Assembly: GCF_000737325.1 (NCBI RefSeq)
Contig: NZ_CP011125.1
Coordinates: 3,162,001 to 3,226,000, forward strand
Length of the DNA stretch: 64,000 nucleotides
Direction of reading: 5' to 3'
Source of the DNA: Sandaracinus amylolyticus
Lineage (GTDB): Bacteria > Myxococcota_A > Polyangia > Polyangiales > Sandaracinaceae
This document shows positions 37,239 through 40,329 of this stretch, in pieces. The position numbers and the translations under genes were made by a program. Below the pieces are notes generated by a model that was given only the letters and a program-made list of their open reading frames with translations, did not search any database and was not told where the DNA came from. Each line of letters starts with the position of its first letter. Position 1 is the stretch's first letter.

Positions 37239-38270
37239 TCAGTTCGTGATCTCGATGCCCTGCGCCGCGAACTGCGCGACGAGACGCCACGCGTTGCACG
37301 CGGGCAGGCCCGTCGTGCTGTCGCCGCCGCGATCGCACACGTCCTCTTCGCAGCTCGCGTTCGCGGTGCAGCCGCTCGCGTCGCAGAGCGAGTCCGGCTG
37401 CGTCATCCACGCGCTCTGCGGGTTCACCTCGCAGTAGTCCGCCTGGGTCAGCAGGCCCGCGATCGCCGCGCAGACCGTCGTCATCACGGGGCCGCTCACG
37501 ACCATGCCCTCGCGCGCCGACGCGACCTCGATGAAGCCGTCGAGGATCGCGCCGGTCTGGAAGCGACCGCGGCCCTGCTGCCAGCCGACGCAGCTGCGCT
37601 CGCTGTTGAGCTCGCCCTCGATCACCTGGATGTTCCGCAGCTCGAGCTCGAGCTGCACGTCGGTCTCGGCCTCGTTGAGCACCGGCACCACGACCGAGCC
37701 GGTGTGGCGCTCCGTGACGACGCGCTCGCCCGTGATCGTGCCCGGGATCTCCGCGGGGCCGTAGCGCTCCACGTCGTCGACGCCGAGCGGGTCGCTGCCG
37801 TCGCCCGTCGGGAACGCGTACGTGCCGTCGTCGGCCTTCACGCCGAAGCCCGTGCGCACCGTGACCTCACCGTCTCCGTCCGCGCCCTCGACGCGGATCA
37901 GCCACGCGAACGTGCCCTTCTCGAGCGCGCCGTTGAGCACGCCGAGCAGCACCGGCCCGGTCAGCTGCGAGCCCTCGGGCGCGCTGATCTCGAGGTAGCG
38001 CAGCCGCAGCTCGGGCGCGTCCTGCGCGTCCGACTGCGAGTCGACGTAGCAGCACGGGCCCATGCCCGGCGTGCCGCCGTCGGGCGCCGTGCACGTGACG
38101 TCCGTCGGAGGATCCTCGGTGGGCAGCATCGGCGGTGTCATGGGCGTGCAGCCCGCGTCCGCCTGACCACCGCCGTCCATCCCCCCCGACGTCCCGTCGT
38201 CGTCTCCGCAGCCCACGCTCAGCGCTCCGGCGAGCGCGATCATCGCCAAGCCAATCCGCCCCTTCGACAT
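37239..38270 (-). CDS. Putative lipoprotein of unknown function
   Basis: 343-residue predicted lipoprotein. The ATG at 38270 has GAGGAG upstream; the signal peptide ends in lipobox LSVGC, followed by GDDDGTSGGMDGG, a short flexible linker. The body starts with CTP...MLPTEDPPTDVTC and has several cysteine pairs (GPCCYVD, CEEDVCDRGGD). It contains EISAPEGSQLTGPVLLGVLNGALEKGTFAWLIRVEG, which looks like a beta-sandwich. I do not recognise the family. Probably exported to the outer surface like its neighbours. Confidence 0.75.
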   Translation of the reverse strand: MSKGRIGLAMIALAGALSVGCGDDDGTSGGMDGGGQADAGCTPMTPPMLPTEDPPTDVTCTAPDGGTPGMGPCCYVDSQSDAQDAPELRLRYLEISAPEGSQLTGPVLLGVLNGALEKGTFAWLIRVEGADGDGEVTVRTGFGVKADDGTYAFPTGDGSDPLGVDDVERYGPAEIPGTITGERVVTERHTGSVVVPVLNEAETDVQLELELRNIQVIEGELNSERSCVGWQQGRGRFQTGAILDGFIEVASAREGMVVSGPVMTTVCAAIAGLLTQADYCEVNPQSAWMTQPDSLCDASGCTANASCEEDVCDRGGDSTTGLPACNAWRLVAQFAAQGIEITN

Positions 38271-38375
38271 CCCCAATCTCCTCGTGGTCGCGCGCACGCG
38301 CGAGGCGCCATCCTAACCACAAAGCGGGGCGGTCTGCGCGGTTCGTGGCGCGCGCAACGTTTTTTGTCGGCGCGC

Positions 38376-38409
38376 GCTACGGAATCCGTAGCGCTACGGA
38401 TTCCGTAGC
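38376..38409. repeat. 34-bp perfect palindrome made of two near-palindromic halves
   Basis: GCTACGGAATCCGTAGC and its complement GCTACGGATTCCGTAGC abut exactly, so the whole reads the same on both strands. Each half (CTACGGAATCCGTAG) is itself a near-perfect palindrome about its centre base. It lies 12 bp past the PfkB kinase stop (minus) and about 105 bp before the 38270 gene. A run of TTTTTT (38359-38365) lies on the plus side. Confidence 0.9.
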
Positions 38410-38420
38410 ACTGCGTTCGA

Positions 38421-39350
38421 TCAGAGCGTGCCGATCTCGGCCGGCGTCGCGAAGTGCGCGAGCCGCGCGAACGCCGCGTAGCGCGTCGCGATCTCCGCGG
38501 GCGTCACGCGCACGAGGCGCTCGACCGAGATCCCCTCGACGAGGAACGACGCCATCACCGAGCCGTGGATCACCGCGCGGCGCAGCGTCGCGCCGTCGAC
38601 GCGATCCTCCTTCGCCAGGAAGCCGAGCAGGCCGCCCGCGAACGAGTCTCCCGCGCCCGTCGGGTCGAGCACTTCTTCGCACGGGTACGCCGGCGCGCTG
38701 AAGACGCTGTCGCCCTCGAAGAGCAGCGCGCCGTACTCGCCGCGCTTGATGACGACGATGCGCGGTCCCATCGCGAGCAGCGCGCGCGCCGCCTTGAGGA
38801 TGTTGTGCACGCCCGCGAGCTGGCGCGCTTCCTCCTCGTTGATCACGAGCAGGTCGACGCGCTTCAGCATCTTGGCGAGCTCGAGCGGCTTGCCCGAGAT
38901 CCAGAAGTTCATCGTGTCCGCGATCACCAGCTTCGGCGCGTCGATCTGATCGAGCACCGCGACCTGCAGCTCGGGATCGATGTTGCCGAGCATCACGTAC
39001 GGCGTCTTCCGGTGCTCGGCCGGGATCTTCGGCTGGAACGACGCGAACACGCCGAGCTCGGTCTTCAGCGACTCGCGGCTCGTGAGGTCGTCCGAGTAGC
39101 GGCCCTCCCAGAAGAACGTCTTGCCCTCGACGACCTCGAGGCCGCGCACGTCGACGCCCTTGTCGCGGAGCAGCTGCACGCCCGAGTCGGGGAAGTCGCG
39201 TCCGACGACGCCGACCAGCTTCACCGGCGTGAAGTACGACGCCGCGAGCGCCGCGAACGTCGCCGAGCCGCCGAGCACGCGCTCGTGCGTGCCGAGGTGG
39301 TTGTGGATGGTGTCCTGCGCGACCGAGCCGACCACGAGCATCGACGACAT
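38421..39350 (-). CDS. PfkB-family carbohydrate/nucleoside kinase
   Basis: 309-residue cytoplasmic kinase. The ATG at 39350 has GAGGAG 8 bp upstream. It starts MSSMLVVGSVAQDTIHN; the PfkB motif 2 DPTGAGDSFAGGLLGFLA (about 240) holds the catalytic aspartate and anion hole. VLGGSATFAALAASYF matches motif 1. The pattern fits adenosine/ribokinase-type enzymes. It lies 112 bp after the MTA phosphorylase gene, so a nucleoside such as adenosine or methylthioribose-related sugar is a plausible substrate (inference from gene order). Confidence 0.9.
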   Translation of the reverse strand: MSSMLVVGSVAQDTIHNHLGTHERVLGGSATFAALAASYFTPVKLVGVVGRDFPDSGVQLLRDKGVDVRGLEVVEGKTFFWEGRYSDDLTSRESLKTELGVFASFQPKIPAEHRKTPYVMLGNIDPELQVAVLDQIDAPKLVIADTMNFWISGKPLELAKMLKRVDLLVINEEEARQLAGVHNILKAARALLAMGPRIVVIKRGEYGALLFEGDSVFSAPAYPCEEVLDPTGAGDSFAGGLLGFLAKEDRVDGATLRRAVIHGSVMASFLVEGISVERLVRVTPAEIATRYAAFARLAHFATPAEIGTL

Positions 39351-39462
39351 GGGCTCACTCCTCATGAGAACGAACGGGGCACACACGAGTCCGCGCCGCG
39401 GCGATCCTCCTGCTGCGAGGACGCGCGCGGCGCGCACGAAGAACACGGGAAGCCGATCGGGC

Positions 39463-40329
39463 CTACGAAAGATGACGGCCGATGAGGGCCGCGAGCTTCT
39501 CCTTGGCCGCTGCCGAGATGTGCGAGGGCGGGGTGATCAGCGCGTGCCGCATCGCGTTCGTCGCGGGGCTCTGCGCGGGATCCGGGATCTTCGACGCGAC
39601 CGCGCGCAGCATCGCCTGCGCGGTCCCGACGTTCTTCTTGAGCACGGCGAGCACTGCATCGACGCTCACCGCGGCCTCCTCGCGACGCCAGCAGTCGTAG
39701 TCCGTCACGAGCGCGACGGTCGCGTAGGGAAGCTCGGCCTCGCGCGCGAGGCGCGCCTCGGGGAGGTTCGTCATCCCGATGACGGTCGTGCCCCAGCTCC
39801 GATAGAGATCGCTCTCGGCGCGCGTCGAGAACTGCGGGCCCTCGATGCACACGTAGGTGCCGCCGCGGCGCGCGCGGACGCCGACCTCGAGCGCGGCGCG
39901 ATAGAGCGCGTCCTGCAGCGCTGCGTCGATCGGATCCGCGAACTCGACGTGCGCGACCACTCCGTCGTCGTCGAAGTACGTGGTCGGGCGGCTGCGCGTG
40001 CGATCGATGAACTGATCGACGAGCACCACGTCGCCGGGGTGGATGTCTTCCTGCATCGAGCCGACGGCGCTGATGCTGATCACCTGCTCGGCGCCGAGCT
40101 GCTTCAGCGCGAGGAGGTTCGCGCGGTAGTTGATGCGGTGCGGCGGGATGCGGTGACCGCGCCCGTGGCGCGGCAGGAACAGCAAGCGCGTCTCGCCCAA
40201 CGTTCCCGCGATCACGACGTCGGACGGATCGCCGAACGTCGTGCTGACACGGTGCTCGCCGCGATCGACGAGCCCATCCATCTCGTAGAGGCCGCTGCCT
40301 CCGATCACGCCGACGATTCGGGTCGTCAT
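39463..40329 (-). CDS. mtnP: S-methyl-5'-thioadenosine phosphorylase
   Basis: 288-residue phosphorylase that splits methylthioadenosine (a by-product of polyamine synthesis) into adenine and 5-methylthioribose-1-phosphate. It is the first step of methionine salvage. The ATG at 40329 follows GGGAG. Family signatures: VIGGSGLYEMDGL, FLPRHGRGHRIPPHRINYRANLLAL, SAVGSMQEDIHPGDVVLVDQFIDRT, CIEGPQFSTRAES and GMTNLPEARLAREAEL. The substrate-pocket pattern is that of MTA rather than inosine phosphorylase. It heads a pair with the PfkB kinase. Confidence 0.95.
   Translation of the reverse strand: MTTRIVGVIGGSGLYEMDGLVDRGEHRVSTTFGDPSDVVIAGTLGETRLLFLPRHGRGHRIPPHRINYRANLLALKQLGAEQVISISAVGSMQEDIHPGDVVLVDQFIDRTRSRPTTYFDDDGVVAHVEFADPIDAALQDALYRAALEVGVRARRGGTYVCIEGPQFSTRAESDLYRSWGTTVIGMTNLPEARLAREAELPYATVALVTDYDCWRREEAAVSVDAVLAVLKKNVGTAQAMLRAVASKIPDPAQSPATNAMRHALITPPSHISAAAKEKLAALIGRHLS

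Follow-up and report, generated by a model that had tools for sequence, protein, structure and literature searches.

The 34-bp perfect palindrome at positions 38376–38409 of the window, the whole 64-kb stretch of DNA analyzed here, is best read as a member of a dispersed REP-like repeat family whose copies probably function as hairpins in RNA, at the 3′ ends of mRNAs, and we place the probability of this reading at roughly 0.6. Its components differ in firmness. That the element belongs to a dispersed, constrained repeat of gene 3′ ends is highly probable; that the repeat acts as an RNA hairpin, a role modeled from predicted folding and placement, is favored slightly over even odds. A REP-like 3′-end hairpin is the best-supported reading, and the repeat is best regarded as a new REP-like family, devoid of the unpaired GTAG tag and of a RAYT transposase, in two closely related myxobacterial genomes: the window genome (10.33 Mb; G000) and a congener (G002). 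G001 denotes another genome of the genus.

Direct reading confirms the observation, first made in a sequence-only reading, that the perfect palindrome is assembled from two smaller ones: GCTACGGAATCCGTAGC is followed without a gap by its complement GCTACGGATTCCGTAGC, and each 17-mer half is itself nearly self-complementary. The site and its surroundings comprise the following features.

37239..38270, minus strand: downstream gene, same direction as the kinase gene; ATG at 38270 used as the start (codon-usage script start, 38243)
38310..38329, minus strand: putative promoter stretch for that gene, with minus-strand sequence TTTGTGGTTAGGAT, also kept in G002
38376..38392, no strand: palindromic unit 1, 17 bp, GCTACGGAATCCGTAGC, read directly
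38393..38409, no strand: palindromic unit 2, 17 bp, GCTACGGATTCCGTAGC, the reverse complement of unit 1, read directly
38410..38420, minus strand: 11-bp gap between the palindrome and the kinase stop codon
38421..39350, minus strand: pfkB-family kinase gene, 309 aa (PF00294, 1e-30), with the palindrome directly 3′ of its stop codon

The site is the longest gap-free palindrome of the window (runner-up, 22 bp), and when the window was simulated 100 times under a first-order Markov model, none longer than 26 bp arose, in keeping with the earlier view that such a palindrome is maintained. At up to three mismatches, the 17-mer finds no match in the window beyond the two units themselves, against a mean of 0.17 matches in 100 shuffles. 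A chance origin has a negligible probability: these simulations and shuffles, the reversed controls that fall below the observed copy numbers, and above all copy number and conservation refute it. A known RNA family was likewise rejected, Rfam covariance models returning no match in 37800–39000 at an E-value of 1.

Genes were called by a codon-usage script written for this analysis, which starts the downstream gene 132 bp past the palindrome; the ATG at 38270 reduces this distance to 105 bp. Its product has a lipoprotein-like N-terminus (judged by eye) and no Pfam match at 0.001. A gene with a similar start, again judged by eye, follows the kinase in six of the eight family relatives outside G000 and G002; one of the remaining two carries a different downstream gene, and in the other the flank is cut off. 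The stretch at 38310..38329 may, from its sequence, hold the promoter of the downstream gene. A sigma-70-like promoter was rejected, as the search of 38000–39500 gave no match. On the plus strand, 38335–38354 forms a terminator-like hairpin ending in T6, and the codon-usage script finds no plus-strand gene before it; the corresponding minus-strand A6 may belong instead to the promoter of the downstream gene.

A solitary and unconserved site, which would have spoken against selection, is not what we find: the search for copies elsewhere in the genome, proposed in the sequence-only reading, recovered dozens, and the site is kept in G002. The 13-bp core occurs 26 times in G000, against none for its reversed control. 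Among the matches listed, the unit GCTACG-N5-CGTAGC occurs 61 times in G000 (reversed control, 16), 53 times in G002 (29), and not at all in G001 (6). The usual center of the unit is RAWTY, giving a 17-bp consensus, GCTACG-RAWTY-CGTAGC; this centered form was found 46 times in G000 and 43 times in G002 (controls, 0 and 0) and once in the remaining 54 of the 56 genomes, again among the matches listed. Tandem units repeat at a 17-bp pitch and are often doubled head to tail. The two-unit form, with one mismatch allowed, gives 22 matches in each of G000 and G002 and none in 17 other relatives; with overlaps merged, these collapse to 20 multi-unit loci in G000 and 16 in G002. Its exact pattern is confined to two of 377 phylum genomes, among the matches listed.

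Twenty-five independent multi-unit elements, 20 in G000 and 5 found only among G002 loci, form the basis of the analysis below. Twenty-two have two units and three have three; seven are perfect 34-bp palindromes and three are direct repeats. The largest array, at L078 in G002, has six canonical units and an adjoining degenerate one. Across the 108 collected units, 16 deviate somewhere from the 12 outer bases, in a collection that was seeded on GCTACN7GTAGC. At three loci (L027, L035, and L036), a longer, GC-rich stem carries a single unit at its tip. A differing form of array is seen at L039 (1228–1319), where three single GCTACGGAATTCGTAGC units are spaced by 37 and 38 bp instead of forming 17-bp tandems.

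The placement of these elements relative to genes is skewed. The multi-unit elements occupy 14 convergent, 10 tandem, and 1 divergent gene gaps, compared with 39 convergent, 174 tandem, and 97 divergent among 310 background gaps measuring 40 bp or longer, which were drawn from the window and from 30 tiles round elements in both species rather than from random places. The distance from element to stop codon has a median of 10 bp and ranges from −33 to 348 (38 sides), and 4 of the 25 elements overlap a gene end (distance −16 or −33) and themselves supply its TAG stop. The neighboring genes are diverse: no family matched more than 3 of the 57 neighboring proteins scanned, out of 64 listed genes (left out were two L026 genes, a repeated L034 gene, and one each at L035, L038, L070, and L080, the last of which was scanned later). 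No transposase appears in the 25 of 116 neighbor-gene families listed.

Single units are distributed differently. The fetched loci, a subset of the genomic places, supplied 63 element rows, of which 27 hold single units, 11 of them in convergent gaps, 5 in tandem gaps, and 11 within genes; removal of L092, L096, L097, and L098, the G002 counterparts of G000 loci, leaves independent single units in 8 convergent gaps, 5 tandem gaps, and 10 genes, three single-unit rows belonging to the one locus L039. The in-gene units (L022, L028, L040–L044, L050, L051, and L054, near position 1250) encode RY(G/E)(I/F)RS or ATxxVA. When five of them were compared with G002, two were identical, two differed by one base, and one was not conserved. 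Given the RAWTY-center counts of 46 and 43 against controls of 0 and one match in 54 other genomes, pure chance is unlikely to account for these in-gene units. Their codons, judged by eye, look rare for the genome.

The element is constrained in sequence and labile in unit number. The kinase gene is present in 10 family genomes, and the expectation that the palindrome would be kept at the same place in relatives holds for one of them: in G002 the 34 bp behind the kinase are identical (34/34), the adjacent bases differ, and the palindrome extends to 36 bp. It fails farther out in the family. One of the eight other kinase loci ends within the gene, and the seven readable 3′ flanks of these farther relatives (350 bp) contain neither CTACN7GTAG nor a perfect palindrome longer than 10 bp; four of the seven match the 12 fixed bases at up to three mismatches, a threshold too loose to be informative.

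Over 14 ortholog pairs, element positions give 423 matches, 17 mismatches, and 19 gaps, compared with 770, 143, and 130 for flanking intergenic DNA and 28104, 2229, and 1486 for coding DNA; identity over aligned bases is 96% for the element and 84% for the flanking intergenic DNA. These pairs are the loci with an element in both species and lean toward conserved cases, because L045, L033, L052, and L076, where one species lacks it, were left out; also left out were L070, L026, L022, L023, L028, L044, L050, and L051, and no G002 counterpart was established for L067 and L068. Between species, unit positions 1–5 match in 26 of 27 units, and position 11, which changes most, matches in 21 of 27; the outer bases change least. 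This pattern makes sequence recognition besides pairing likely.

Whole units, in turn, come and go. Canonical units number two versus six at L037/L078, three versus one at L070/L098, two versus one at L031/L092, and two versus none at L045/L084. The last is the sole exact empty/filled site: the two species differ there by precisely 34 bp adjoining the stop codon, with AGC on the flanks and no target-site duplication beyond that trinucleotide. The G000 elements at L045, L033, and L052 are absent from G002, and that at L076 is absent from G000. In two cases, gene and element are present or absent together between the species: a DUF1003 gene with its 3′ element (L034 1238–1954 versus L079), and a gene without a Pfam match with its 3′ element (L076 1239–1911 versus G000). 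Both gene-plus-element units resemble small cassettes. Integron attC sites are palindromes that also lie directly behind stop codons, and the two present/absent cases extend the likeness; however, attC end motifs appear to be absent from the unit, and no cassette arrays were seen.

Such turnover would also be expected of a selfish or neutral palindromic repeat, a nonautonomous mobile element that is tolerated mainly in 3′ intergenic space and serves no host function. The presence/absence differences between the two species fit this account, as do the confinement to two genomes of the genus, among the matches listed, and the unrelated neighboring genes. Nevertheless, we consider it distinctly unlikely: across the 14 pairs, a set without the loci that lost it, the element is better conserved than coding DNA and than its flanks, the L045/L084 site lacks a target-site duplication beyond AGC, copy number is low, and neither G000 nor G002 has a PF01797 match. 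A mobile carrier was also rejected, as the two-unit pattern has no match in IMG/VR.

Comparison with the GTAG REPs brings the family into sharper focus. GTAG REPs lie between convergent and unidirectional genes, often less than 20 bp from stop codons; their termini supply TAG stops, some copies lie in genes, and copies occur singly, as dimers, or grouped, in families that are sometimes confined to a single species or a single genus (Di Nocera et al. 2013, PMC3733652). The present repeat agrees with them in consisting of dispersed palindromes whose stem is short and whose loop is small (61 units in one genome and 53 in the other), in its location (24 of the 25 multi-unit elements are in convergent or unidirectional gaps, at the median of 10 bp from stops over the 38 sides), in supplying TAG stops, in forming dimers, and in having some copies within genes. 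It differs in that it has no unpaired terminal GTAG, which here pairs with CTAC inside the stem, that the unit is almost its own reverse complement, that tandems follow a spacer-less 17-bp pitch, that a genome holds about 50–60 units, and that PF01797 was not found. The spread of GTAG REPs is attributed to RAYT transposases, and these repeats carry the unpaired tag. Di Nocera et al. add that the transposase can be lost (PMC3733652). At an E-value of 0.001, PF01797, the RAYT (Y1) transposase, is absent from G000, G001, and G002, while 10 of the 19 genomes searched have some; a RAYT-driven REP was therefore rejected for G000 and G002. Because both the unpaired tag and PF01797 are missing, we call the element REP-like rather than a REP. 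CGTC-type REPs, described in the same work, are also palindromes without a dedicated transposase, but they carry a CGTC tag and another stem and loop and are mostly head-head dimers (PMC3733652).

The literature searched yielded no precedent: no publication containing the 15-mer in either orientation was found, searches on myxobacterial palindromic intergenic repeats gave no such family by titles and abstract openings among the matches listed, and those pairing Myxococcus xanthus with repetitive extragenic palindromic sequences were off topic by title. Searches for CRISPR and IS are mentioned in the paper on the Sandaracinus amylolyticus genome (PMC5010890).

At the RNA level, both foldings envisaged in the sequence-only reading, one long hairpin or two short ones, were computed: the 34-nt RNA forms a 15-bp stem with a 4-nt loop at −25.6 kcal/mol, and a single unit reaches −9.3. 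The 121-nt RNA round the site is more stable than its shuffles (z = −3.76). Between the first two units of the 25 elements, 91 of 125 cells are Watson–Crick pairs (shuffle mean 83.6, p 0.03), rising to 102 of 125 when G–U is included (p 0.02); this covariation is weak, three of the 25 pairs are direct copies, and some of the near-invariance seen at the outer bases follows from the use of GCTACN7GTAGC as the seed for collecting units.

Like an intrinsic terminator, the element places a GC-rich hairpin 3′ of a stop codon; unlike one, it has no U-tract, and its sequence is repeated and conserved. At the window site, the next 8 bases on the minus strand contain no T, and the earlier statements stand: a U-tract is missing there, and this is not a normal U-tract terminator for the kinase gene. 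More broadly, a U-tract (at least 4 T in the next 8 bases) is missing from all 60 gene-end sides, a set that takes in single units and orthologs, and a terminator-like hairpin with a T-rich tail lies within 110 nt on 5 of the 60. These five are the ortholog pairs L020/L077 and L029/L072, together with L056, which corresponds in G002 to the window site. A classical terminator role is thus unlikely. A U-less, I-shaped intrinsic terminator acting in both directions would dispense with the tract altogether. The strong symmetric hairpin, often between convergent genes and near both stop codons, would suit such a device, the single units of L027, L035, and L036 cap longer GC-rich stems, and termination by hairpin clusters has been proposed (PMC8355165). 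Still, with 0 of 60 sides carrying a U-tract and with T-tailed hairpins, which would then be redundant, downstream on 5 of 60, we rate this possibility as improbable.

The main rival to the 3′-end RNA hairpin is a protein-bound site. Here each 17-bp unit would, as duplex DNA, bind one protein dimer at gene ends and serve as a roadblock, an insulator, or a nucleoid or topology site. Between species, the half-sites are conserved better than the center, the pitch is 17 bp, convergent gene ends are preferred, U-tracts are absent, and the in-gene single units fit a DNA site better than a 3′-end RNA hairpin; outer bases kept beyond the needs of pairing suggest protein recognition. Furthermore, the CTACG-N5-CGTAGCG-CTACG-N5-CGTAG architecture recurs in Actinobacteria: a scan of GTDB contigs, which may omit the genus of the window, returned 13 records (L129–L141) with one site each, all Actinobacteria by name, including Bifidobacterium, Mycolicibacterium, and Rhodococcus. 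Two of these sites adjoin TetR genes (Pfam), and others adjoin genes resembling, by eye, TetR or YhgE/Pip. It is therefore plausible that CTACG-N5-CGTAG tandem half-sites serve as a protein site. The half-sites, the CG junction, and the 17-bp pitch are common to both groups; however, the actinobacterial sites occur once per record, near promoters where these were read, with a free center, and no close relative of their TetR was found in G000 or G002.

These differences weigh on the specific proposal, made at the outset, of a conserved repressor binding two dimers. The elements lie at gene 3′ ends, not at promoters, and only one of the 25 multi-unit elements is between divergent genes, a count that speaks against a promoter operator and leaves a roadblock untouched. 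Scoring covered 150 of 265 candidates in G000 and 150 of 284 in G002, and the list of TetR genes may therefore be incomplete. Of the 45 TetR_N matches in G000, none comes closer to an element than 2.5 kb; of the 52 in G002, the closest has a single unit 861 bp away, downstream of the match and not at its promoter. Within 4 kb of elements in G000 there are two matches against 1.4 expected, and none of the 45 and 52 matches in TetR, the one family examined, is a regulator with its own site. The search recovered only weak relatives of the actinobacterial TetR, 24–35% identical and present also in the repeat-less G001. A TetR operator was accordingly rejected on proteins, proximity, and location. 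A duplex site for another kind of protein is, in our estimation, unlikely. More speculative is a genus-specific punctuation, in which a protein seated on tandem 17-bp palindromes behind stop codons would block RNA polymerase from both sides. We regard this as a long shot; if true, gene ends would be marked by a bound protein instead of a U-tract, and genes may come and go together with their 3′ element.

The evidence as a whole returns us to the REP-like hairpin at 3′ ends. In its favor are the gene-end placement, the conservation in 14 pairs, the whole-unit changes, the z of −3.76, and the likeness in location to GTAG REPs. Against it, the 10 independent in-gene single units do not fit a role restricted to 3′ ends, covariation is weak, no transposase or carrier was found, and the element is missing in one species at L045, L033, L052, and L076. 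Mechanistically, we infer that the element is transcribed within mRNA 3′ ends, where the doubled form (34 nt, −25.6 kcal/mol) would fold into its 15-bp stem. The hairpin, lacking self-sufficient U-tract termination, could shield the 3′ end from 3′–5′ exonucleases and/or limit read-through into neighboring genes, perhaps together with Rho. Copies would have arisen by rare duplicative spread, and unit number would be altered by slippage between 17-bp units and by hairpin-promoted deletion.

Such a family, which has neither tag nor RAYT in the genomes searched yet is placed at 3′ ends as GTAG REPs are, poses the question of how palindromes spread without a known transposase. It exhibits sequence constraint together with whole-unit turnover between two sister species, and its about 20 multi-unit loci per genome offer a small set for distinguishing RNA 3′-end function, protein binding, and selfish spread.

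Two minor observations concern distribution. Of the 44 listed element places in G000, only 5 fall within 0–3.2 Mb, about one third of its length. A role as chromosome-domain marker was weighed, but this element-poor stretch is centered neither on the strongest dnaA match, at 9.82 Mb, nor on the point opposite. Other repeat-like stretches, exemplified by CAGAGAGCCGCAGAG and GGAGAGCAGGAGAGG, were noticed by eye at element-bearing gene ends (L045 ~1290–1400, L049 ~1170–1250, L030, and L069), and hence 3′ gaps may collect repeats.
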